Source: Cryobacterium sp. PAMC25264 (GTDB taxonomy: Bacteria; Actinomycetota; Actinomycetes; Actinomycetales; Microbacteriaceae). From it: a stretch of 64,000 bases of DNA. This document shows positions 34,700 to 51,513 of this stretch, in pieces. The stretch covers positions 2,852,001 through 2,916,000 of the forward strand of contig NZ_CP080383.1 in the NCBI RefSeq assembly GCF_019443325.1, read 5' to 3'. The notes beneath the pieces were generated by a model. It saw nothing but the letters and a program-made list of their open reading frames with translations, did no database searches and had not been told where the DNA came from. A program made the translations under genes and the position numbers. Positions within the stretch are counted from its first letter, which is position 1; every line of letters begins with the position of its first letter.

Positions 34700-35413
34700 T
34701 TACGCCGTCGCGGCGGAGATCGACTTCTGCAGGGGGCGATAGTGCTCGACCACCGCTTTTCGATAGCCCTCCACGTCCCCGCGCAGCGCGGCGGCGAGCA
34801 TATCGCCGTGTGCTTCGGCGGTGTGTCGGATGTCCGCCGGCATGGCGATTCCCAGCTGGGGAATTACCGCGGTGTGAATATCCCAGAAGGCGCCGACCAA
34901 CTGTACGGCCAGCCGGTTGCCGGTCACGGCGAACAGCTTTGTGTGAAAAGCCCGGTCGGCCTCTAGAAACCCTTCGCCTCGGGATGCCTTGTCGATCATC
35001 TCGTCCACGAGCGCCGCCAGCTCCGTCGAGTCTGCTTCAAGAGCGCCGTTCACAATGACGTCGGCCATGGCGAGGTCCAGGGCGAGCCGCACGTCGACGA
35101 CCTCACGCAGGGCCGCCAGCGATCCCTCCGGCGACAACACACCGCGGAACACGAGCGCCTCGACCATGGGGTCCAGCGACATGGCGCCGACGTAGGTTCC
35201 GTGCCCGTGGCGTACGTCGACGATGTCAAGGGTCGCGAGAGTTCTGATCGCCTCGCGAACTGACGAGCGGGAAACATCGAGGGTCTCGCAGAGTTCGGGC
35301 TCGGTCGGCAGCAGGTCACCCGGCTTGAGATTTCGGGTGAGGATCAATTTCTTGATCTCGTCGGCCGCGGTAGAACGCCGCATGCGCGACGTGTGCTTGT
35401 CGATCTGTGACAT
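34700..35413 (-). CDS. nanR: GntR/FadR-family regulator of sialate genes (NanR-like)
   Basis: 237 residues. GntR winged helix (about 12-80, LPTEPELCETLDVSRSSVREAIRTL and VRHGHGTYVG) plus a FadR-type FCD effector domain (about 95-230) with His/Asp residues for a metal. ATG 35413 has GGAGA five bases upstream. Divergent from the transporter and the nan genes, with an operator palindrome in the 132-bp gap. Naming rests on context. Confidence 0.85.
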   Translation of the reverse strand: MSQIDKHTSRMRRSTAADEIKKLILTRNLKPGDLLPTEPELCETLDVSRSSVREAIRTLATLDIVDVRHGHGTYVGAMSLDPMVEALVFRGVLSPEGSLAALREVVDVRLALDLAMADVIVNGALEADSTELAALVDEMIDKASRGEGFLEADRAFHTKLFAVTGNRLAVQLVGAFWDIHTAVIPQLGIAMPADIRHTAEAHGDMLAAALRGDVEGYRKAVVEHYRPLQKSISAATA

Positions 35414-35463
35414 CCAGTCTCCGTCCCCTCGGTTTCCCCGACGTGACAATTTGGTTTCCACCA

Positions 35464-35511
35464 TTGCGTCGGGGCCGAACTTGTGTCTACAGTACATCAG
35501 ACGTCAGATGT
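35464..35511 (+). promoter_or_regulatory. Promoter and operator of the sialate operon
   Basis: -35 TTGCGT (35464-35469), 18-bp spacer, -10 TACAGT (35488-35493). Immediately after it, ACATCAGACGTCAGATGT (35494-35511) is an 18-bp palindrome with eight of nine pairs matched and a GACGTC centre, well placed for repression of the start site by NanR. Ribosome site GGAG at 35537-35540 precedes the lipoprotein ATG 35546. Confidence 0.6.
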
Positions 35512-35545
35512 CCTGCAATGCTTTCCCGTCCCTCTTGGAGAACTC

Positions 35546-37140
35546 ATGAATCGAATACCCACCCGCCGTCGTATGGGTCGTCTCGCTGCCGCAGTAGCTG
35601 GCACCGTCGTGACCGCCATCGTGTTAGCCGGCTGCGGAGCATCCACCCCGATCCTAGCGAGGACAATGCCTCAGCCGAGGTCGATCCGAACGGCATCATC
35701 GAAGCCGGAATCTCGTATTCCCTGAACGGTAGTTTCGACCCGATGATCGCCTCAGGCGCAGTGACGGTCGCCGCCAACTGGCACATCTTCGAGGGGCTCG
35801 TCGACCTGGACCCCGTCACCAAGGAGCCCTACGCGGCGCTCGCTGCGGATCTCCCGACGAAGGTCGACGACACCACTTTCGAGATCGACCTCCGAAAAGG
35901 TGCAACCTTCCAGAACGGCGAACCCGTGACACCGGAAGATGTCGTGTACAGCTACGAGCGGGTCCTCAACCCGGACAGCGGATCGCTGTTCACGACGTAC
36001 ATCGATTTCATCAACTCGGTCACCGCGGTCGATGATGACACCGTTCGAATCACCACCGACTACCCGTTCTCGCTGATCAATGAGCGCCTCGGCATCGTCA
36101 AAATCGTTCCGAAGGCTGTCGTCGAGGCAGACCCCGAAGGCTTCGGCGCCAACCCGATCGGCTCCGGACCCTACTCGCTGGTCTCCGCGGTTCCCGAGGA
36201 CAAGATGGTCTTCGAACGCTACGACGACTACAACGGCCCGCGCCCCGCGCTCGCGGCCGGCATGAACTGGAACCTCCTGGCTGACGCGGCCGCTCGCGTG
36301 ACGGCCATGTCCTCCGGCACCATCCAAGCCATGGAGGACGTTCCGTACATCGATGTCGACCAGCTCGCCTCATCGGCCGATGTAGACAGCGTCCAATCGT
36401 TCGGACTCCTTTTCATGATGTTCAATACGGATGCGGCTCCGTTCGACGACCCCCGCGTGCGCCAGGCGTTCTTCTACGCGCTCGACATGGACAAGATCAT
36501 CGAAACCGGCATGCTCGGCAACGCGACCGCGGCCACATCCTTCCTTCCCGAGGACTACACGAACTACCACGAGGCGTCCACGGTCTACACCTATGACCCC
36601 GACAAGGCCGAAGAACTGCTCGACGAGGCCGGCGCGTCCGACCTCTCGATCACGCTCCTCACCACCGACACGGGCTGGGTCAAAGAAGTCGCTCCGCTGA
36701 TCAAGGAGTCCCTGGACGCCATCGGAGTCGACGTGACCCTGGACATCGGCCAGTCGGCCGCTGCCTACGCCAAGGTCGATTCCGGCGACTACACCGTCAT
36801 GGTCGCCCCGGGTGACCCCTCCGTGTTTGGCAACGACCCCGACCTCCTCATGAACTGGTGGTACGGCGACAACGTTTGGACAAACACCCGCACCAACTGG
36901 GCGGACACGGAGGAATACGCCCAACTACGCGGCCTGCTCGACAGTGCAGTGCAGGAGGACGGCAGCACGCAGCAGGAGACCTGGAACGAAGCCTTCGATT
37001 TGATCTCCGAGCAGGCTGTACTGTACCCGCTCTTCCACCGCAAGCTCCCCACCGCGTGGAGGGGGCAGGAACTGACCGGTTTCCAGCCCGTCCCCACCAC
37101 CGGGCTGTCCTTCCTCGACGTGGGCGTCGCCGCAAACTAA
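35546..37140 (+). CDS. Solute-binding lipoprotein, family 5, sialate ABC transporter (frameshifted in this sequence)
   Basis: About 531 residues after correction. The N terminus is a lipoprotein signal (MNRIPTRRRMGRLAAAVAG, ending in the lipobox LAGC). One base is missing in the CCCC run at 35646-35649; beyond it the mature protein continues in the next frame (DNASAEVDPNGIIEAGISYS) through a complete DppA/OppA-like fold (TPEDVVYSYERVLNPDSG, AFFYALDMDKIIETG). Its place next to nan genes fits SiaE/SatA proteins of Corynebacterium and Haemophilus ducreyi, which are family 5 sialate binders. Confidence 0.85.
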
Positions 37141-37219: not shown

Positions 37220-38175
37220 GTGTCCAACACCCTCCGCCTCATCGGCCGTCGGCTCCTGCAGCTGCCGATCATGATCCTGGGCATCACATTCCTGGTTTTC
37301 TTCGTGATGTCTTTTTCCCCCGTCGACCCGGCACGCACCGCACTCGGAGAAACCGCGTCCCGGATGCTCTGGAGTCTTACCGCGATGCGCAAGGCCTCAA
37401 TGACCCACTGCTCGTGCGGTACGGCGACTTCCTCGCCGGTTTGCTGCGCGGCGACCTGGGGACCTACTCCGCTCGGAGCCTCCCCGTCAGCGAAGAAGTC
37501 GCTCGGGCCTTTCCCATCACACTCTCCCTCACCTTCCTCGGTCTGGTGATCGCTGTCGTTCTCGCCCTGGCGCTCGGAGTCCTCGCAGCCGTCTACCGCG
37601 ATCGGTGGCCAGACAAGATCATCCGCATCGTGGGTGTCGCGTCACTGTCCACGCCGTCCTTCTGGCTCGCCATCCTCCTCATCCAGCTCTTCACCCTGCA
37701 GCTATCGATCCTTCCCGCCTCAGGCCGGCTTCCGGACTTCAGCTCGGATCCGGTCGGCTGGTTGGCCCGGATGGCCCTGCCGGCGGTCGCGCTTGCCATC
37801 CCCGTCACAGGTCAGCTGTCACGAGTCGTCCGCACCTCCATGGTGGAGGAACTCGACCGGGACTACGTGCGGACCGCGCTCGGCGCCGGCATCCCCCGAC
37901 ACATCGTGGTCGCCCGGAACGTGCTGCGGAATGCTCTGATCACCCCGGTCACGGTGCTCGGACTCCGCGTGGGATATCTCATCGGCGGCGCCGTGGTGAT
38001 CGAGGTCATCTTCGCCATCCCCGGAATGGGAACGCTGATCCTCAACGGCGTGACCAACAACGAACCCAATCTCGTGCAGGGGGTCACCCTCGCGGTCGCC
38101 CTGGCCTTTGTCGTGATCAACATCATCGTCGACCTCCTGTACGTGCTGATCAACCCAAGAATTAGGGCGGTTTGA
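37220..38175 (+). CDS. ABC permease, DppB type (frameshifted in this sequence)
   Basis: About 318 residues after correction, six membrane segments, a DppB/OppB-type permease (SiaF-like by context). GTG 37220 has AGGAAGGAG upstream. One base is missing in the CCC at 37359-37361: LGETAS is followed in the next frame by PDALESYRDAQGLNDPLLVR, as the family requires. The EAA loop (EELDRDYVRTALGAGIP) and GYLIGGAVVIEVIFAIPGMG are intact. Confidence 0.86.
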
Positions 38176-38179
38176 GACC

Positions 38180-40243
38180 ATGCGACGCACACTAGCCGAA
38201 CGACTTTCGGTACCAGGCCTGCGCCTTGCCGGCCTGTCCATCGGGTCAAGAATCTGTCTGGCAATCATCACTGTGATCGCCCTTTCCGCGATCTTCGCAC
38301 CGCTGGTGGCTCCATTCGACCCCCTGGCATCCGGCCCGCCGGTGCAGGCGCCCAGCGCTGAACACTGGTTCGGCACGGACCGGCAGGGGCGCGACATCTT
38401 CTCGCGGCTCCTCTACGGCGGCCGGTACTCATTGGCGATCGGCCTCGGCGCGACGCTGAGCGCCCTCGCGGTGGCATCGGTACTCGGCGCAATCGCCGCC
38501 ACTGCATCCAAGTGGATCGCCGAGACCCTGATGCGCGTGATGGACGTCGTCATGTCATTTCCCGGAATCGCTTTGGCGGCCGTCTTCGTCGCCGTGTTCG
38601 GCAAGTCACTTCCGGTCCTGATCTTCACCATCGCCTTTCTCTACGTCCCCCAGCTGACCCGAATCGTGCGCGCCAACATCCTCGACCAGTACGGCGACGA
38701 CTACGTCGCTGCCGTACGGGTCATGGGTGCATCAACACCACGGATCATCGTCAAGCACGTCGCCCGCAACACAATGGCACCGGTACTGGTGTTCGCCACG
38801 GTTCTCGTCGCCGACGCGATCGTGTTCGAAGCGTCCCTGTCATTCCTTCAGGCCGGCGTCCCCGACCCTGAGCCCTCCTGGGGCAATGTGATCGCGTCTG
38901 GTCGGAATCTTCTGATGAGCGGTGCGTGGTGGGCGACGTTCTTCCCCGGCCTGCTCATCATGCTCTCGGTGCTGTGCCTGAACATCCTCTCCGAGGGGAT
39001 GACCGATGCCATGCTCACCCAGAAGACGCGAAAGATCACCACCACAGCCGCCGCGACCGACGAGGCGACGAGCACGCTCGAAGCCAACCAGTCGGAAGGC
39101 GCCGCCTCGGGGGCCGGACTCACCGGGGACACCAGGTCCGACGGCGCCGAGGTACCCATCGTGACGGTCGCCATACCCACGTTGGAAGCCACCACGACAG
39201 CCGTCCCACTGGAAGAGCGGCTCGCCGCCCTTCGTGACATCGAGCTCGGGCGCTCGGACCGGTTGCAGTTCACAACCGACGTGCCGCCGCTGCTCGAGGT
39301 CAGAAACCTGTCGATCTCCTTCCCGCGCCACGGCGACGTCAGTGTCGTTGACAACGTCAACTTCACGGTGCGCCCAGGCGAGACCATGGCATTGGTCGGC
39401 GAGTCCGGGTGCGGCAAGTCGATCACCTCCCTCGCCATCATGGGTTTGCTCGACCCGCGGGCGACGATAACCGGCCAGATCCTCTTCGACGGCAAGGACC
39501 TTCTGCAGATGGCGCCCAAGGAGCGCAACGCGCTCCGTGGTCACGACATCGCGATGATCTACCAGGATGCTCTGAGCTCGCTCAATCCCGCCATGCTGAT
39601 CCGTTCGCAGATGAAGCAACTGACCTCGCGAGGCGGCACCCGCAGCGCGGAGGAGCTTTTGCACCTGGTCGGCCTCGAGCCGAAACGCACTCTGGCGTCG
39701 TATCCGCATGAGTTGTCCGGTGGGCAGCGTCAGCGAGTGCTCATCGCCATGGCCCTCACCCGGAACCCACGGCTGGTCATCGCGGACGAGCCGACAACGG
39801 CTCTGGATGTGACAGTTCAGGCTCAGGTCGTCGATCTGCTCAACTCGCTCCGCGAGGAACTCGGATTCGCCATGGTGTTCGTCTCCCATGACCTCGCCTT
39901 GGTCGCCGAACTCGCGCACCGCATCACCGTGATGTACGCGGGCCAGGTTGTCGAGCAAGCGACGACCCGGGAGCTGCTCACCCAGCCGCTGCACGAATAC
40001 ACTCGCGGGCTGCTCGGTGCTGTGCTCTCGATCGAATCCGGTTCCGATCGCCTCCACCAGGTCCCCGGGACTGTACCGTCGCCGCGAGACTTTCCGGCCG
40101 GCGACCGTTTCGCGCCACGATCGTCCACCCCGGCACGAGGCCGCGGGGTCACCCCCGTACGCCGCCGTCTCGACGGGACGGATCACTACTATGCCGCGCA
40201 TCCCGAGGACGCGCCGATCCTGCCACTAGGAGGCACACGATGA
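38180..40243 (+). CDS. Fused ABC permease-ATPase (DppC-DppD type)
   Basis: 687 residues. Residues 1 to about 285 are a DppC permease (FGTDRQGRDIFSRLLYG, EAA loop DDYVAAVRVMGAS). A Thr/Ser/Ala/Glu-rich linker (about 285-375) leads to a DppD ATPase: Walker A GESGCGKS (about 410), LSGGQRQRVLIAMAL, Walker B VIADEPTTALD, and the oligopeptide C-terminal extension. Corynebacterium SiaG has the same fused layout. Overlaps the next ATPase by ATGA. Confidence 0.9.
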   Translation: MRRTLAERLSVPGLRLAGLSIGSRICLAIITVIALSAIFAPLVAPFDPLASGPPVQAPSAEHWFGTDRQGRDIFSRLLYGGRYSLAIGLGATLSALAVASVLGAIAATASKWIAETLMRVMDVVMSFPGIALAAVFVAVFGKSLPVLIFTIAFLYVPQLTRIVRANILDQYGDDYVAAVRVMGASTPRIIVKHVARNTMAPVLVFATVLVADAIVFEASLSFLQAGVPDPEPSWGNVIASGRNLLMSGAWWATFFPGLLIMLSVLCLNILSEGMTDAMLTQKTRKITTTAAATDEATSTLEANQSEGAASGAGLTGDTRSDGAEVPIVTVAIPTLEATTTAVPLEERLAALRDIELGRSDRLQFTTDVPPLLEVRNLSISFPRHGDVSVVDNVNFTVRPGETMALVGESGCGKSITSLAIMGLLDPRATITGQILFDGKDLLQMAPKERNALRGHDIAMIYQDALSSLNPAMLIRSQMKQLTSRGGTRSAEELLHLVGLEPKRTLASYPHELSGGQRQRVLIAMALTRNPRLVIADEPTTALDVTVQAQVVDLLNSLREELGFAMVFVSHDLALVAELAHRITVMYAGQVVEQATTRELLTQPLHEYTRGLLGAVLSIESGSDRLHQVPGTVPSPRDFPAGDRFAPRSSTPARGRGVTPVRRRLDGTDHYYAAHPEDAPILPLGGTR

Positions 40244-41046
40244 GTCAACCCATCATCGAGCTTCAGGACGTACACGTACGGTTCAAGACCCGCACGTCCG
40301 GCCTGTTCACCAAGAGCTATATTGATGCGCTCGCGGGTGTCTCACTCACGGTCAGGCGGGGACAAACCCTCGGCATCGTCGGAGAATCCGGCTCGGGAAA
40401 GTCCACCGCCGCGAAAGTTCTCGTGGGTCTGCAGCAGCCGACGGCGGGTCAGGTTGTGTTCGCCGGCGAAGCCGTCTCCTCGTTCACTCCCGGTGTGCGC
40501 CGACGCCTCGGCAGCATCCTGTCGGTCGTCTTTCAAGACCCGGCGACCGCCCTGAACGCCCGGATGACGGTGCGAGACGCGCTGCTGGATCCGATGCAGG
40601 TGCACCACGTCGGCGAGCCCTCGCACCGCGAACTCAGGGTGAAGGAGCTTATCGGCCTGGTCGGCCTCCCGACGTCGGCCTTGGACGCGCTCCCCGCCCA
40701 ACTCTCCGGTGGTCAGCGTCAGCGCGTCGCGATCGCGCGCGCACTGGCTCTCAACCCGCAGGTGATCGTGGCGGACGAGCCCACCTCGGCCCTCGATGTC
40801 TCGGTGAGAGCACAGATCCTGAACCTGCTCACCGACCTCAAGAACGAACTGAACCTCGGCATGGTCTTCATCTCCCATGATATCCAGACCGTGCGCTACC
40901 TCTCCGACGAGATCGCTGTAATGAACAGGGGCCGTGTTGTCGAGTTCGGGGACGCTGCCCGCGTCTTCAACGACCCCGCTGATCCCTACACACGCAGCCT
41001 CCTCGGAGCCGCGCCTTCACTGCTCAACCCGCATTCACCCGCCTGA
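40240..41046 (+). CDS. ABC transporter ATPase, DppF type
   Basis: 268 residues: Walker A GESGSGKST, Q-loop VFQDPATALN, signature LSGGQRQRVAIARAL, Walker B VIVADEPTSALD. Second ATPase of the sialate importer (SiaI-like). Shares ATGA with the fused permease-ATPase. Confidence 0.92.
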   Translation: MSQPIIELQDVHVRFKTRTSGLFTKSYIDALAGVSLTVRRGQTLGIVGESGSGKSTAAKVLVGLQQPTAGQVVFAGEAVSSFTPGVRRRLGSILSVVFQDPATALNARMTVRDALLDPMQVHHVGEPSHRELRVKELIGLVGLPTSALDALPAQLSGGQRQRVAIARALALNPQVIVADEPTSALDVSVRAQILNLLTDLKNELNLGMVFISHDIQTVRYLSDEIAVMNRGRVVEFGDAARVFNDPADPYTRSLLGAAPSLLNPHSPA

Positions 41047-41072
41047 CACATCAACCTCAATTGGACGTACAG

Positions 41073-42017
41073 ATGACTTCCCTCGCCACTCCCTCCACCA
41101 TCCGTTTCGCCGGCATCATCCCCCCTGTCGCGACTCCTCTCCATCCGGACGGGACTATCGACCACGCGTCCCTCGCCCGCCTCGTCGACTACCTGATCGG
41201 CGCCGGTTGCGCTGGCCTCTTCGCGCTGGGTTCCACCGGCGAGACCGCGTACTTCACCAATGCACAACGAGTGGAGATCGCCCGCACCATCGTCAACACC
41301 ACGGCAGGGCGCGTGCCGATCATCGCCGGGGCCATAGAACTGACGGCCGTGCGCGTGATCGAGGTCGCCCGCCAGCTCATCAAGGTCGGGGTCGATGCGA
41401 TCGTCACCACCGCGCCGCTGTACACGTTGAATTCGACCGCCGAGGTCGCCGCACATTTCCGCACCATCGCGGCCGCCATCGACGCGCCGCTGTGGGCGTA
41501 CGACGTTCCCGTGCGCGTCCATTCGAAACTCAACCTGGACCTCCTCATGGAGCTGGCCACTGAGGGAGTTCTGCACGGCGTGAAGGACTCATCCGGCGAT
41601 GACGTCGGGTTCCGTCGCCTTCTGGCTGCGAACGAGGCCGCGGGGCATCCGCTGCAGGTTCTCACCGGGCACGAAATGGTCGTCGACGCGATGCTCCTTG
41701 CCGGCGCCGACGGAGTAGTTCCCGGCTTCGCGAACGTCGAGGCCGAGGGATACGTGCGGTTGTGGGAGGCCGCCGCTCTCGGAGATTGGGACACCACGCG
41801 GGCAGAGCAGGTCCGCATCAACCGACTGTTCGAGGTCGTCTTCCAGCCCTCGGGCCTGTCCGGCGATGCGACAGGCGTCGGCGCCTTCAAGGCAGCGATG
41901 CTCGCGCGCGGTCTGATCGATCACGCCACCGTGGCGACCGGTGTCGAAGCTCTTGACGACGCCGCGGTGACGAAGATCCGCGCGATTCTCGCGGACCACG
42001 ACCTGTTGCCGGTGTGA
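41073..42017 (+). CDS. nanA: N-acetylneuraminate lyase (DapA/NanA family)
   Basis: 314 residues, TIM-barrel class I aldolase. GSTGE loop (ALGSTGETAYF), Tyr in WAYDVPVR and Schiff-base Lys in HGVKDSSGD. Family alone covers several 2-oxoacid lyases; the ABC transporter, NanK, NanE, NagA and NagB make sialate to ManNAc plus pyruvate the best reading. ATG 41073 is preferred to TTG 41061; neither has a strong ribosome site. TGATG overlap with nanK. Confidence 0.85.
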   Translation: MTSLATPSTIRFAGIIPPVATPLHPDGTIDHASLARLVDYLIGAGCAGLFALGSTGETAYFTNAQRVEIARTIVNTTAGRVPIIAGAIELTAVRVIEVARQLIKVGVDAIVTTAPLYTLNSTAEVAAHFRTIAAAIDAPLWAYDVPVRVHSKLNLDLLMELATEGVLHGVKDSSGDDVGFRRLLAANEAAGHPLQVLTGHEMVVDAMLLAGADGVVPGFANVEAEGYVRLWEAAALGDWDTTRAEQVRINRLFEVVFQPSGLSGDATGVGAFKAAMLARGLIDHATVATGVEALDDAAVTKIRAILADHDLLPV

Positions 42018-42967
42018 TGAACGACGTCATGCTCGCCGTCGACATCGGAGGCACGAAGACCGCCGTCGCCCTCGTCGACTCTGACGACACCATCCTCAGC
42101 CGGGCCACACGGCCGACACCGGGCTCGGCAGGACCGGGCGCCGTCGTCAGCACGGTTGTGAACCTGGCCACCGAGCTGCTCGACCGGATGCCCCAAGCGA
42201 TTCTCCGTGGTGTCGGCATCGGTACCGCCGGAGTCGTCGACGTGCGCTCGGGATCGATCGTGTCCTCGACCGACACTCTTGCCGGCTGGGCCGGCACCCC
42301 GCTCGCCGACGCTGTGCGCAGGGGCATGGGCACCCGACTGCCGGTCAACGCGGTTGTCCATGTGCAGAACGACGTCGACGCTCACGCCGCAGGCGAGATT
42401 CGCCACGGCGCAGCACTCGGCGCCGACAGTGTGCTGGTCGTGGCGGTCGGCACCGGTGTCGGCGCCGGTGTGATTCTCGGCGGTCGCGCACTCCGGGGGG
42501 CGCGCCACGTCGCCGGAGAGATTGCGCACGTCCCCACTCCCGGCGCCGAACACCTGAGGTGCACGTGCGGGCGGTCCGGTCATCTCGAAGCGATCGGGTC
42601 AGGTCTGGGCCTGTACCGGCACTACCTCTGGCTCGGCGGAGATCCCGCCGAAACGGATGCGCGGGGTGTGGGCGGCCGGGCCGCAACCGGGGATGTTCTC
42701 GCAGCCCGCGCCGTGCGCGATTCCGCTGCGGCCGTGGGACGTGCGATCGCAGCGGTGGTGACCGTCCTCGATCCCGAGCGCGTGGTTATCACCGGCAGTG
42801 TGCCCACGATCGGCGACGCCTGGTGGAGTGCCATGGACGCCGCGTTCCACGCCGAAGTGATCGACGCGCTCCAAGGGGTGCCGCTCGTCGCCGGCACCCT
42901 CGGCGGCGACGCTCCGTTGCGCGGAGCTGCCGCATCCGCGTGGGCCGCTGTGAGGGGAGAGTCATGA
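42017..42967 (+). CDS. nanK: ROK-family kinase, N-acetylmannosamine kinase
   Basis: 316 residues. ATP loop LAVDIGGTKTAVALVD, catalytic region QNDVDAHAAGE, GTGVGAGVILGG, and the ROK zinc motif, here CTCGRSGHLEAIGSG: the usual third Cys (CxCGxxGCxE) is His. Phosphorylates ManNAc in this pathway by context. ATG 42017 shares a base with the nanA stop; GTG 42014 is an alternative. Confidence 0.86.
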   Translation: MNDVMLAVDIGGTKTAVALVDSDDTILSRATRPTPGSAGPGAVVSTVVNLATELLDRMPQAILRGVGIGTAGVVDVRSGSIVSSTDTLAGWAGTPLADAVRRGMGTRLPVNAVVHVQNDVDAHAAGEIRHGAALGADSVLVVAVGTGVGAGVILGGRALRGARHVAGEIAHVPTPGAEHLRCTCGRSGHLEAIGSGLGLYRHYLWLGGDPAETDARGVGGRAATGDVLAARAVRDSAAAVGRAIAAVVTVLDPERVVITGSVPTIGDAWWSAMDAAFHAEVIDALQGVPLVAGTLGGDAPLRGAAASAWAAVRGES

Positions 42968-43668
42968 CGACGCGTGCCGAGAGCATTATCGGCCTTCTCA
43001 CCGGTGGGCTGATCGTCTCCTGCCAGGCCTACCCGGGCGAGCCCATGCGCGACCCCAAGACGATGGCACAGATCGCCCGCGCGGCCGTGCTCGGCGGTGC
43101 CGTCTCAGTGCGGCTGCAGGGCATCGCCGACATCCGGGCTGCCGCCGACATCACCGTTCCGATCGTCGGGCTCGTCAAGGACGGTGGCTCCGGCGTCTTC
43201 ATCACCCCGACGCTCGAGCATGCCCGTGCCGTCGCGGATGCCGGGGCGAGCATCGTCGCGATCGACGGCACACGTCGGCCCCGCCCGGACGGGCTCACGC
43301 TGGCCCAAACCGTCGCGGGGCTGCGGGCAACACATCCGGACGTCCTCGTGATGGCCGATTGCGGTTCCCTCGACGACGCGATCGCTGCCGAGCAAGCGGG
43401 CGCAGACATCCTCGGCACGACCCTCTCCGGCTACACCGGTGAGCGCAATAAGACATCAGGGCCCGACCTTGATCTCATCCGGAGCATCGCCACGCGTTGC
43501 GTCCAGCCTGTCGTCGCGGAGGGGCGAATCCATACACCGGCCGACGCCGAAGCGGCACGTCGAGCGGGCGCCCATGCCGTGTGTGTGGGTACCGCGATCA
43601 CGCATCCAACCACGATCACGTCGTGGTTCGTTGAAGCATTGGCGACCACATCAGGGAGAGTCAGCTAG
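42964..43668 (+). CDS. nanE: N-acetylmannosamine-6-phosphate 2-epimerase
   Basis: 234 residues, the NanE TIM barrel: GGLIVSCQAYPGEPM, GAVSVRLQGIADIRA (catalytic Arg), PIVGLVKDG with the Lys, GASIVAIDGTRRPRPD and VVAEGRIHTP. Turns ManNAc-6-P into GlcNAc-6-P. ATG 42964 overlaps the nanK stop as ATGA; the end shares a base with the GTG of nagB. Confidence 0.93.
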   Translation: MTTRAESIIGLLTGGLIVSCQAYPGEPMRDPKTMAQIARAAVLGGAVSVRLQGIADIRAAADITVPIVGLVKDGGSGVFITPTLEHARAVADAGASIVAIDGTRRPRPDGLTLAQTVAGLRATHPDVLVMADCGSLDDAIAAEQAGADILGTTLSGYTGERNKTSGPDLDLIRSIATRCVQPVVAEGRIHTPADAEAARRAGAHAVCVGTAITHPTTITSWFVEALATTSGRVS

Positions 43669-44447
43669 TGGAAGTAATCATCGTCCGGGAAGACCGGATC
43701 GGCGACCTCGTTGCCGACGAAATCGCTGCGCTCATGGCACGCAAGCCTGACGCGGTATTGGGGCTCGCCACCGGGTCGAGCCCCCTGCGCATCCACGACG
43801 CTGTGGCCGACCGGGTCGCCGAGGGCACGATCTCACTGGCCCGGGCCCGTGCGTTCACGTTGGATGAATACGTGGGCCTGACTGAGGGGCACCCCTGTTC
43901 CTACCGCACGGTGATCGAGCAGGACTTCGTCTCCCGAGTCGATCTGCCCACAGACGCCGTGCAGGGCCCGAACGGCGGCGCAGCCGATCTGCCTGCCGCC
44001 TGCGCCTCCTTCGAGAGCGCGATGCGGGAGGCGGGCGGTGTCGACCTGCAAATTCTGGGGATCGGCACCGACGGTCATATCGCCTTCAACGAGCCTGCCT
44101 CGTCGTTCACTTCGCGCACGCGGGTGAAGACCCTCACAGACCAAACTCGCCTCGACAACGCGCGGTTCTTCGACGGCAACGTCGATGCGGTTCCCGTGCA
44201 TTGCCTCACCCAGGGGCTCGGAACGATCATGGAAGCCCGTCACGTCGTGCTGGTCGCGACGGGCGCCGGAAAGGCTGAAGCGGTGCGACAGCTCGTCGAG
44301 GGCGCCGTGTCGGCGCTCTGGCCGGCCACAATCCTCCAGCATCACCCGCATGTCACCGTGTTCGTCGACGACGAGGCGGCCGCGCAGCTGGAACTGGCGG
44401 ACTACTACCGCTCCACGTACGCTCACCGAGACAGTGTGATCCGATGA
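43668..44447 (+). CDS. nagB: Glucosamine-6-phosphate deaminase (sialate locus copy)
   Basis: 259 residues. GLATGSSPLRIHD phosphate loop, TLDEYVGL, and the canonical GIGTDGHIAFNEPASSF triad, unlike the Ser variant in the GlcNAc-locus copy. GTG 43668 overlaps the nanE stop (TAGTG); the end overlaps the next gene by ATGA. Confidence 0.93.
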   Translation: MEVIIVREDRIGDLVADEIAALMARKPDAVLGLATGSSPLRIHDAVADRVAEGTISLARARAFTLDEYVGLTEGHPCSYRTVIEQDFVSRVDLPTDAVQGPNGGAADLPAACASFESAMREAGGVDLQILGIGTDGHIAFNEPASSFTSRTRVKTLTDQTRLDNARFFDGNVDAVPVHCLTQGLGTIMEARHVVLVATGAGKAEAVRQLVEGAVSALWPATILQHHPHVTVFVDDEAAAQLELADYYRSTYAHRDSVIR

Positions 44448-45418
44448 GGTACGAGCCGCCGGCCGAGCCCCTGGCACCTCGGGGAGCGCTCGTCAGCGCT
44501 TATGCCGCCTCGCCCGCCCACGGCAGTTGGGATCCCGTCCTCGAGGGGGAGCTGCTTCGGGGATTGTGCGCGCTGCCCGATGTGGTCGGGCTTGAAATAC
44601 CCTGGCTGGGTGCCATTCACCCGCACGACAGTGCGTGGTTCCTGCACAATGTTCCTGCCGGCGCGCAGTTGTCTCTGACCGCATTGCCGTTTGTCATGAA
44701 GCGATGCCGAGAAGCCCCTCACTATGGGATCGCGTCTCCGGATCGTGCGGGCAGGACGGCAGCGCTCGCCGACCTGCGGCGCCTGGCCGCCGACGTGCGG
44801 ATGCTCACCGAGCAGTCTGAGGCCGAGGTGGCCGTGGTCAGCCTGCACACCGCCCCCGCCGGGGGCGCAGACTCTGCAGCTCTTGCCGAGTCGCTCGCCG
44901 AACTCACCGACCTCGACTGGAATGGGGCTCAGCTCGTCATCGAGCACTGCGACGCTGTCATGCCGGACCACCCGTTCGAGAAGGGCTTCCTCCCGGTCGC
45001 CGACGAGATCGCCCTGGCCGCCCAGTCGGGCGCGTCCATCGGCATGTGGGTGAACTGGGGGCGCTCGGCCATTGAACTGCGCAGCGCAGACTCCGTCACC
45101 TCACAGATCGCCGCAGTTGCGGGCTCCGGGCTCCTGACGGGGCTCACGTTCTCGGGGGCGAGTGCCGCCGACGGTCCCTATGGCCACGCTTGGAGTGACG
45201 CGCATCTTCCCGTCCTCAGCGCCGACCCGGCATCCGGGTCGCTCCTCGACGACGTTCATGTGCGGGCGGCTCTCAGCGCTGCGGCCGACGTGGAGTGGCT
45301 GGGCGTGAAAGTCAGCCGTCGGCCGCACGATCGGACGGCGGCGGACATCGTTCGCACCGTCGAGAGCAACCTCTCGGCGATCCGCAACGTTCAAACGGAT
45401 GGTGAGGTGAAGGCATGA
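44444..45418 (+). CDS. DUF4862-family protein of unknown function in the sialate operon
   Basis: 324 residues, no signal peptide, no membrane segment. The pattern of alternating strands and helices with conserved VGLEIPWLG, SLHTAP, LVIEHCDA and WVNWGRSAIE looks like a xylose-isomerase-type TIM barrel and matches what I know of DUF4862. Conserved His/Glu/Asp in EHCD could bind a metal, an inference. It is translationally coupled on both sides (ATGA into it and ATGA out to nagA), so it is a real operon member. Possible roles: epimerase or mutarotase for a sialate derivative; unproven. Confidence 0.75.
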   Translation: MRYEPPAEPLAPRGALVSAYAASPAHGSWDPVLEGELLRGLCALPDVVGLEIPWLGAIHPHDSAWFLHNVPAGAQLSLTALPFVMKRCREAPHYGIASPDRAGRTAALADLRRLAADVRMLTEQSEAEVAVVSLHTAPAGGADSAALAESLAELTDLDWNGAQLVIEHCDAVMPDHPFEKGFLPVADEIALAAQSGASIGMWVNWGRSAIELRSADSVTSQIAAVAGSGLLTGLTFSGASAADGPYGHAWSDAHLPVLSADPASGSLLDDVHVRAALSAAADVEWLGVKVSRRPHDRTAADIVRTVESNLSAIRNVQTDGEVKA

Positions 45419-46614
45419 CCGGTCTGCTCGTACACTCCGCTCGGCTCATCACCGCCAACTCCCCCGGTGACATCCGCGACGACCCGACTGGTTGGGTGCG
45501 CATCCGCGACGGCATCGTGACAGCCACCGGCACGATGGAAGGCTGGGCCCCCGACGGGGACGAAGTGGTCGACGCCAGCCAGATCGGCGGGCCAGGTGCG
45601 ATCATCACCTCCGGCCTCGTGGATATCCACAACCACGGCGGAGCGACCTTCGCGTTTGACGGCAGCATCGAAGAGATCCTGCAGGCAGTCGACGCTCATG
45701 CCGCCCACGGCGTGACCCGGATCGTGCTTTCTCTTGTGAGCGCCCCTCCCCGTGCCCTTGAGGCTCAGCTGACCCGGATCGCCGCCGCCCGGGGCGAGCA
45801 GCCCGGCATTCTCGGCGCCCACCTCGAGGGTCCATACATCGACAGTGATCGCTGCGGAGCCCACGACCCAGCCGCCCTTCATCCGCCCGAAGCGCACGAG
45901 CTCGCCCGCCTGCTCGCGACGGGGGTGGTCCAGCAGGTGACGCTCGCACCCGAACTGACCGGCGGTATCGAGGCGGTGCGCCAGATTGTCGCCGCCGGGA
46001 GCGTTGCGGCCATTGGGCACACCGGCGCTGACGCGGGCACCACGCTCCGTGCGATCGATGCCGGAGCCAGCCTTCTGACTCACACTTTCAATGCGATGCC
46101 ACCGGTGCATCACCGGGTGCCGGGGCCGATCGGTGCCGCGGCGGCGGACGACCGGATGATCCTCGAGATCATCGCTGACGGCAGTCACGTCGACCGCACG
46201 ATCGTCCGGATGCTCTTCGCCGCCGCACCCGGCAGGGTGGCACTCGTCAGCGACGCGATGGCCGCCGCTGCAGCGTCCGACGGCGAGTACCTGCTCGGCG
46301 CCCAGAAGGTCACCGTGAGAGATGGGCTCGCCACTCTGCACGGCACCAGTGTCCTCGCCGGTTCAACCTTGACCCTGGACCGTGCCCTCCGCAACGTAGT
46401 GTCGTGGGGCATTCCGCTCGGTGCGGCGATCGCCTCAGCAACCGTCGTGCCGGCCCGAGCGATACAACGCGACGACCTCGGCCGTCTCGAGGTGGGCTGC
46501 CGCGGTGACCTGGTGATCTGGGACAGCGCCCTGGTCCCTCGTGCCGTGTGGCGCGACGGTGTCCGTATCGTCGCGGACGCCGTCGCGCACAACCGTCCGC
46601 TCGCGGCCGGATGA
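45415..46614 (+). CDS. nagA: N-acetylglucosamine-6-phosphate deacetylase (sialate locus copy)
   Basis: 399 residues. SGLVDIHNHGGATF, GAHLEGPYIDSD, AIGHTGADAG, LTHTFNAMPPVHHR and LVSDAMAAA are the NagA metal and catalytic motifs. Starts in an ATGA overlap with the DUF4862 gene and ends in ATGA with the broken esterase gene. Confidence 0.93.
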   Translation: MTGLLVHSARLITANSPGDIRDDPTGWVRIRDGIVTATGTMEGWAPDGDEVVDASQIGGPGAIITSGLVDIHNHGGATFAFDGSIEEILQAVDAHAAHGVTRIVLSLVSAPPRALEAQLTRIAAARGEQPGILGAHLEGPYIDSDRCGAHDPAALHPPEAHELARLLATGVVQQVTLAPELTGGIEAVRQIVAAGSVAAIGHTGADAGTTLRAIDAGASLLTHTFNAMPPVHHRVPGPIGAAAADDRMILEIIADGSHVDRTIVRMLFAAAPGRVALVSDAMAAAAASDGEYLLGAQKVTVRDGLATLHGTSVLAGSTLTLDRALRNVVSWGIPLGAAIASATVVPARAIQRDDLGRLEVGCRGDLVIWDSALVPRAVWRDGVRIVADAVAHNRPLAAG

Positions 46615-47072: not shown

Positions 47073-50572
<3,500 letters not shown>

Positions 50573-50656
50573 GGGGTTCTCCTTCATTGAAGAATCCCGA
50601 GCTTCACGCGGTGACCCTGACGCGGCTTCGGATTCGGTTCTGTTTTCTTTTATGGG

Positions 50657-50674
50657 CGGGAGCGGTTGCTCCCG
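50657..50674 (-). repeat. Hairpin between bglG-type gene and the PTS gene
   Basis: CGGGAGC-AACC-GCTCCCG on the minus strand, a perfect 7-bp stem just downstream of the antiterminator gene. No T-run follows, and no RAT-like sequence precedes it, so its role is unclear. Confidence 0.45.
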
Positions 50675-50691
50675 TGTTCGGGGACCGCCGG

Positions 50692-51513
50692 CTACAGGAA
50701 GCTGGCGATGTGCAGGCCGATGTAGACCTTTTCGGACGCGCTCATTGCATGACCGTGGCTGCGCATGACGAACGCGTCGACCCTGTCGACGCAGGCGAAC
50801 GCGGCGGGCTTCTGCTCACGCAGGATGCGCAGCAGTTCGGCATCGTCGCGCTGCACGGTCTCGCCGAGCAGCACTCGCTGTGCGAAGAAACGCAGGTGGG
50901 TGACGAAGCGGAGATAGGCGGGGCTGTCGTCGTCGTAGGCGATGCCGAAGTTCAGCCGCACGATGTCGAGGATCGAGTGGGTGAGCTCCATCAACCGGGT
51001 GGCGCTGTCGGCGGCGCCGCCCACTTGGGCGTTGATGATGTGCAGGGCGATGCTGATCGCCTCGTCGGCCGGCAGTTCGATGCCGAGCTTCACGTTCAAT
51101 TCGGTCACAGCGCTCTTGGCGAAGGCGTATTCGGTGGGGTAGAACCGGCGCACCTCCACGGCGAGCGGCACCGTGAAGTCGCCGCCGTCCCGCACCCGGG
51201 CCACGGCGAAGGAAAGGTGGTCGGCCAGCGAGGCGTACAGGCTGTCACTGATCTTCACCCGTAGCTCCTCGCGGGCCCTCGTGACGATGTCGGCGGTGGC
51301 GGTAAGCACATCTGCGGGGATGGAGCCCACAATGGACGCGAAGTGCCGGCTCGCGGCGGCGTCGTCCAGCCGGAAGATCTCGATCATCGATTCGTCGATC
51401 GATTCGCCGGGCTTGGACTTGAAACCCAGGCCCTTGCCGAAAACGATCACTTCCTGCAAGGAGTCGTCGAGACCGTCGACAACGTTGTTGTTCAGTACTC
51501 GCCTGACGATCAC
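50692..51513 (-). CDS. BglG/LicT-family transcriptional antiterminator
   Basis: 273 residues. N-terminal CAT RNA-binding domain (VRRVLNNNVV...EVIVFGKGLGFKSKPGESID) and two PRD domains (about 65-170 and 175-273) with the regulatory His in DHLSFAVAR, ALHIINAQ and GLHIASFL. The PTS phosphorylates these His residues in response to beta-glucosides. A RAT-type RNA target lies in its own leader. Confidence 0.92.
   Translation of the reverse strand: MIVRRVLNNNVVDGLDDSLQEVIVFGKGLGFKSKPGESIDESMIEIFRLDDAAASRHFASIVGSIPADVLTATADIVTRAREELRVKISDSLYASLADHLSFAVARVRDGGDFTVPLAVEVRRFYPTEYAFAKSAVTELNVKLGIELPADEAISIALHIINAQVGGAADSATRLMELTHSILDIVRLNFGIAYDDDSPAYLRFVTHLRFFAQRVLLGETVQRDDAELLRILREQKPAAFACVDRVDAFVMRSHGHAMSASEKVYIGLHIASFL

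Follow-up and report, generated by a model that had tools for sequence, protein, structure and literature searches.

What does a protein of an uncharacterised family do in the middle of an operon for sialate catabolism? The question is raised by a stretch of 64,000 nucleotides from Cryobacterium sp. PAMC25264 (contig NZ_CP080383.1, positions 2,852,001 to 2,916,000 of the forward strand; hereafter the window), where a gene of the Pfam family DUF4862 is wedged between nagB and nagA. We suggest, at a probability of about one in three, that its product is a cytoplasmic accessory enzyme which opens the ring of N-acetylneuraminate (Neu5Ac) for the lyase NanA; its substrate, its reaction and the roles of its residues are all points that we infer. 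The gene in question is:

44444..45418, + strand: DUF4862 protein of 324 amino acids, with a Pfam match and a predicted xylose-isomerase-like TIM barrel

DUF4862 (PF16154) is the single Pfam family matched by this protein at E 0.001, with 279.9 bits against a cut-off of 25 (E 3.5e-83, profile positions 1-287 of 291); neither DUF386 nor PF01261 was matched. The stop of nagB and the start of the gene overlap as ATGA at 44444-44447, as do its own stop and the start of nagA at 45415-45418, which confirms the first-pass annotation of this reading frame as a DUF4862 gene coupled to both neighbours within a sialate operon. That annotation had also stated that no known step was missing. Because nanA, nanK, nanE, nagA and nagB adjoin, there is no gap in the core pathway for DUF4862 to fill, and this explanation was rejected. 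For the accessory step of Neu5Ac anomerisation, however, the statement proved wrong. It is open-chain Neu5Ac that NanA uses, a form which accounts for less than 0.5% in solution (PMC8141875), and the aldolase is described in a review as needing this form (PMC10017367). In E. coli the open form is supplied in the cytoplasm by the DUF386 protein YhcH/NanQ (PMC8141875). A search for YhcH found it in none of 297 genomes of the order to which the window belongs, the window's own included, and in none of 120 genomes of its family; the same search was positive in 14 of 236 genomes of the phylum. E. coli NanQ had no match in the 132 fetched loci (Pseudoalteromonas being represented by a 25-kb stretch), and NanM matched, among these 132 loci, only that of Pseudoalteromonas; the model of NanM (TIGR03547) gave nothing in the window's genome.

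To define the association of DUF4862 with sialate genes, we called a locus sialate-linked if tblastn, with the nan proteins of the window and of Pseudoalteromonas as queries, detected in the fetched stretch at least two of nanA, nanK and nanE, or SBP_bac_5 together with one of nanA, nanE, nagB or a sialidase. Four loci with a nanA-like gene and a sialidase-like match only (L097, L100, L102 and L125) were not counted, and some fetched stretches stop at contig ends. The family and order searches yielded 72 distinct DUF4862 loci, of which 69 were examined (those of genomes G938, G957 and G850 were left out, and that of G686 was seen as L026); three loci found by similarity (L025, L029 and L030) bring the examined set to 72. 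The weak match of genome G013 was left out. Sialate-linked loci numbered 20 of the 69 from the genome searches and 22 of the 72 when those found by similarity were included. In 14 of these 22, judged by tblastn alignment ends, DUF4862 lies on the same strand and within 100 bp of nanE, nanK or nagB, and locus L118 shares the order nanA-nanK-nanE-nagB-DUF4862-nagA with the window. Since this order is kept and so many loci are closely spaced on one strand, the operon arrangement is not due to chance. On the family tree the sialate context requires at least 10 changes, compared with at least 15 in each of 200 shuffles; it is conserved inside clades and present in several separate ones. Outside the actinobacteria, a Pseudoalteromonas plasmid carries a cluster of sialidase, nagA, a DHDPS-family lyase, a mutarotase-family kelch protein, DUF4862, NanR, an SSS transporter, NanE, a ROK kinase and nagB.

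The association was evident also between genomes. NanE was present in 40 of 50 genomes of the order with DUF4862 and in 53 of 247 others (odds ratio 14.6, p 5e-15, a value inflated by related genomes), and, counted by genus, in 20 of 25 versus 21 of 69 (p 3e-5). NanE matches were accepted at E < 1e-40 and read by hand. Of the 186 genomes that matched at all, 93 were kept in this way, and G925, whose NanE is split and matched at 2e-18, was dropped. The sialate link of DUF4862 is thus real, and it is not exclusive. What is supported is a recurring, non-random linkage, and the earlier claim that the product must matter to the pathway is too strong: of the 53 NanE genomes without DUF4862, 37 carry nanA, nanK and nanE together. 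No gene that replaces DUF4862 emerged from these 37 loci, as every cluster shared by more than 6 of them also occurred among the 18 DUF4862 loci used for comparison (with a simple gene caller, which placed nanA in only 27 of the 37). Residues that separate sialate-linked from other members of the family gave weak signals only. The window's genome has a second NanE gene (L185:9706; C1:1969208-1969795), which has nagB- and nagA-like genes nearby; its 20-kb stretch yielded neither nanA nor nanK.

The predicted fold of DUF4862 is an eight-stranded TIM barrel that matches solved members of the xylose-isomerase/ketose-3-epimerase group, in support of the isomerase-like barrel that the first-pass annotation had suggested by eye (the model was built on 3 sequences, with predicted local distance difference test values below 50 at 238-263). 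Sequence searches of the PDB with DUF4862 gave no credible match. The Pseudoalteromonas member matched PF01261 (AP_endonuc_2) at E 0.033, below the cut-off, and hhalign aligned DUF4862 with 37 AP_endonuc_2 rows, two proteins of which were entered twice, at E 6e-5 and a probability of 64%; with 8 rows there was no valid match. A check of the metal site, proposed beforehand, showed that the metal-ligand Asp on strand 6 of ketose 3-epimerases and isomerases is Asn204 in DUF4862, in 72 of 72 rows, and hhalign aligned this Asn to the D-x-x-H motif. Strands 7 and 8 end in the conserved residues Ser237 and Lys289, where ketose 3-epimerases have His and Glu ligands, an equivalence that is not reliably aligned. 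Among 34 diverse members 16 columns are invariant; 14 of them are polar or charged and several stand at predicted ends of barrel strands, a pattern typical of an active site.

On such a scaffold, a predicted xylose-isomerase/ketose-3-epimerase barrel with a rewritten metal site, DUF4862 may open the pyranose ring of incoming Neu5Ac as an anomerase or 'openase' and deliver the open 2-oxo form to NanA. Catalysis would be of the acid/base type, by invariant residues at the mouth of the barrel, for which Glu167-His168, Asp252/His254 and Lys289 are candidates. Ring opening makes up the first half-reaction of the sugar isomerases with this fold, and loss of the metal could leave that half while removing isomerisation. 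The protein would then substitute for YhcH/NanQ, of which no copy was found in the order, and its paralogues outside nan loci might have other cyclic 2-oxo sugar acids as substrates.

In the window the genes around DUF4862 form a single run on one strand, from SBP_bac_5 through the permease, the permease-ATPase, the ATPase, nanA, nanK, nanE, nagB and DUF4862 to nagA:

35407..37140, + strand: SBP_bac_5 solute-binding protein of the presumed sialate ATP-binding cassette (ABC) transporter (PF00496, 271 bits; true start probably later)
37220..38175, + strand: ABC permease, dppB-like, in two overlapping open reading frames (ORFs) of different frames
38180..40243, + strand: ABC permease-ATPase fusion, dppC/dppD-like, named by eye from sequence
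40240..41046, + strand: ABC ATPase, dppF-like, of the presumed sialate transporter, named by eye; homologues adjoin nanA in relatives
41061..42017, + strand: nanA, DHDPS/N-acetylneuraminate lyase family, below the NanA equivalog cut-offs
42014..42967, + strand: nanK, ROK-family kinase, below the NanK equivalog cut-off
42964..43668, + strand: nanE, N-acetylmannosamine-6-phosphate epimerase (PF04131, 178 bits for the translation from 42940; start 42964 set by the ATGA overlap with nanK)
43668..44447, + strand: nagB, glucosamine-6-phosphate deaminase (381 bits, above the subfamily cut-off of 326); its final 4 bases lie in the DUF4862 start
45415..46614, + strand: nagA, N-acetylglucosamine-6-phosphate deacetylase (Amidohydro_1, 216 bits, slightly under the NCBIfam cut-off of 226); its opening 4 bases lie in the DUF4862 end

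At the level of families, DHDPS, ROK, NanE and SBP_bac_5 in line bring together nanA, nanK, nanE and a sialate-type transporter, as in a nan operon. NanA and NanK fall under the curated NCBIfam cut-offs, so both genes are named here from family and position, and the permeases and ATPases were all named by eye. The dppB-like permease is split into ORFs at 37220-37549 and 37414-38175, where relatives carry a single unbroken ORF of about 318 amino acids, reflecting either a disrupted gene or a sequencing error. The permease-ATPase is a single ORF of 687 amino acids, and the same long ORF was seen in 19 fetched loci (median 699 amino acids). Downstream, at 47073-51513 on the - strand, ORF translations read by eye point to a GH1-type phospho-beta-glucosidase, a beta-glucoside phosphotransferase-system permease and a BglG-type antiterminator.

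The family as a whole is patchy. DUF4862 was found in 2 of 396 genomes across the phylum (the window's own and one below the Pfam cut-off), in 22 of 299 genomes of the window's family and in 50 of 297 of its order. The search also matched one of 14 control genomes, that of E. coli, in a gene other than YihM; an identity of DUF4862 with E. coli YihM was rejected, since YihM matches AP_endonuc_2 and not DUF4862. No match was found in the viral contigs searched, and those in plasmids were limited to Pseudoalteromonas and two Azospirillum records, with three more weak ones (E 0.06 to 4). Genome G708 has a DUF4862 gene without stops (L116) and a second match split over two frames (L123:9500-10479).

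The genome-neighbourhood survey had been set beforehand as a test, with a location mostly away from nan or amino-sugar genes as the refuting outcome; it placed most loci, 49 of the 69, away from sialate genes, though several of these stand beside other sugar-acid or carbohydrate genes. One such context combines a tripartite ATP-independent periplasmic (TRAP) transporter with KduI (5-dehydro-4-deoxyglucuronate isomerase, 402 bits), a short-chain dehydrogenase/reductase and a 2-hydroxyacid dehydrogenase, and another is a sulfatase/ABC/MocA group. In L041, DUF4862 lies with 4-base overlaps between genes of a 3-hydroxyisobutyrate-type dehydrogenase and an epimerase/dehydratase family, with a SBD_N/NBD_C sugar-binding kinase-type gene next but one, and in L032 and L049 it is near DHDPS-family proteins. 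The window's genome contains a second copy (L027:9523-10437; C1:1065516-1066391), accompanied by heparinase II/III-like genes and a 2-keto-3-deoxygluconate-kinase-like PfkB gene. This copy lies downstream of the heparinase II/III-like, DUF4962, DUF624 and PfkB genes, and the locus is possibly one for uronate. Five genomes (L083, L092, L104, L106 and L126) have DUF4862 next to genes for a tRNA-ribosyltransferase and for thioredoxin-like proteins. The fetched stretches of these five contain no nan gene, and each of the genomes has a strong NanE match at another place. Several of the non-sialate loci look like sugar-acid or carbohydrate loci, but the tRNA-ribosyltransferase group does not.

Several observations weigh against a ring opener. 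No earlier case of this TIM-barrel fold opening a sialate ring is known to us. Of the 69 loci, 49 are away from sialate genes, and at least five genomes, among the seven NanE loci of DUF4862 genomes that were examined, have a complete nan operon with DUF4862 at another place. Because 37 complete nanA-nanK-nanE loci occur in genomes with neither DUF4862 nor YhcH, an anomerase is not indispensable in the order. The Pseudoalteromonas cluster includes a mutarotase-family protein of its own (229 bits against a cut-off of 243), and NanM, periplasmic in E. coli, is a beta-propeller (PMC10017367, PMC8141875), a fold unlike the one predicted for DUF4862. Since small 2-keto-3-deoxy acids exist mostly in the open form anyway (PMC8141875), anomerase activity is a poor explanation of the uronate contexts. 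Loss of YhcH in E. coli slowed growth on Neu5Ac at pH 6, and its authors expected little effect at more alkaline pH (PMC8141875). A ring opener agrees with the operon and with the absence of YhcH, and, given this same expectation, with the accessory distribution of DUF4862.

The non-sialate contexts, especially the neighbours in L041, the KduI and TRAP genes and the 2-hydroxyacid dehydrogenases, are better accounted for if the protein isomerises or epimerises 2-oxo sugar acids, in the manner of the 2-oxo-tetronate isomerases with this fold; in nan operons it would rescue or convert a rarer ulosonate (KDN, Neu5Gc or an epimer) or a by-product for NanA or later enzymes. This main rival, which we regard as possible while doubting it, agrees with the fold of ketose 3-epimerases and isomerases, and the accessory distribution suits an optional substrate; yet the neighbouring genes imply no sialate variant, and the replacement of the ligand Asp by an invariant Asn makes it unlikely that a proton or hydride is transferred with the help of a metal, as in the known enzymes. 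The first-pass annotation had given an anhydro or lactone form as an example of a sialate variant that the protein may process. A role as hydratase or hydrolase of anhydro- or lactone-type sialates (2,7-anhydro-Neu5Ac, 2,3-EN or the 1,7-lactone), beside or instead of NanY, could draw on the sialidase genes in several loci and on true NanY relatives (44-52% identity) in 4 of the 22 sialate-linked loci. These relatives are missing from the other 18, however, and occur in 2 of 37 nan loci without DUF4862 (Fisher p 0.18); none was found in the searched stretch of the window, and the SBP_bac_5 transporter type of its operon is assigned to Neu5Ac rather than the anhydro form (PMC8754123). The idea that DUF4862 marks the 2,7-anhydro route is not supported, and we consider the hydratase or hydrolase role unlikely. 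A further NanY relative occurs in L142, a NanE locus without nanA that was counted in neither group. The degraded metal site and the wide range of contexts would also suit a regulator that binds sugar acids without catalysis, or a pseudoenzyme that is coupled as a scaffold to NagB and NagA, but the invariant columns, mostly polar or charged and in several cases at strand ends, resemble an active site and render this improbable. That the gene is a mere passenger, in the operon by happenstance, is in line with the many family loci elsewhere and the 37 nan operons that lack it; given the recurrent direct linkage in separate clades and the co-occurrence at the level of genomes, we judge it very improbable.

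If DUF4862 does open the sialate ring, an uncharacterised Pfam family would gain a function, the sialate catabolism of actinobacteria would no longer lack its ring-opening enzyme, and an isomerase fold would be seen reduced to its ring-opening half-reaction. It is a still more tentative proposal that DUF4862 is a metal-free TIM-barrel ring opener which replaces YhcH in nan operons of actinobacteria and of at least one marine gammaproteobacterium, and which founds a wider family whose members, in the pathways of sialate, uronate and related compounds, open or tautomerise 2-oxo sugar acids in their cyclic form. We found no mention of DUF4862 or PF16154 in the open-access PMC literature from 2015 on, a scope that excludes most subscription papers and preprints. 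A survey of actinobacterial sialate catabolism treats nanA, nanK, nanE, nagA, nagB, sialidase, nanOx, transporters and regulators (PMC8754123), and a term search of its main text did not find 'hypothetical', 'DUF', 'unknown function' or 'mutarotase'. YhcH and the word DUF were likewise absent in a term search of the metagenomic survey PMC10570557.

Compared with known systems, DUF4862 resembles YhcH/NanQ (DUF386, PF04074) in being a cytoplasmic accessory gene beside nanK or nanE (nanK-nanQ in E. coli) with the same proposed role, but the two belong to different Pfam families. The fold of YhcH also differs from the TIM barrel predicted for DUF4862. YhcH is a Zn protein (PMC8141875). NanM and the cyclically permuted mutarotases have the Neu5Ac anomerase activity that is here proposed for DUF4862. 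NanY/NanOx (GFO_IDH_MocA) is, like DUF4862, an optional enzyme of nan clusters, but it is a Rossmann oxidoreductase and occurs with or without DUF4862. From D-tagatose and L-ketose 3-epimerases and xylose isomerase, all AP_endonuc_2-like barrels, DUF4862 differs in its invariant Asn at the place of a ligand Asp. Xylose isomerase opens the sugar ring before isomerising, and ring opening is also named in the title of the matched entry 1xyl. OtnI and hydroxypyruvate isomerase, neither of which was matched by the window's protein in the Pfam and NCBIfam results, belong to the same fold class. OtnI acts on 2-oxo sugar acids beside kinase and dehydrogenase genes, and the kinase-type and dehydrogenase genes around DUF4862 in L041 are somewhat like this setting.
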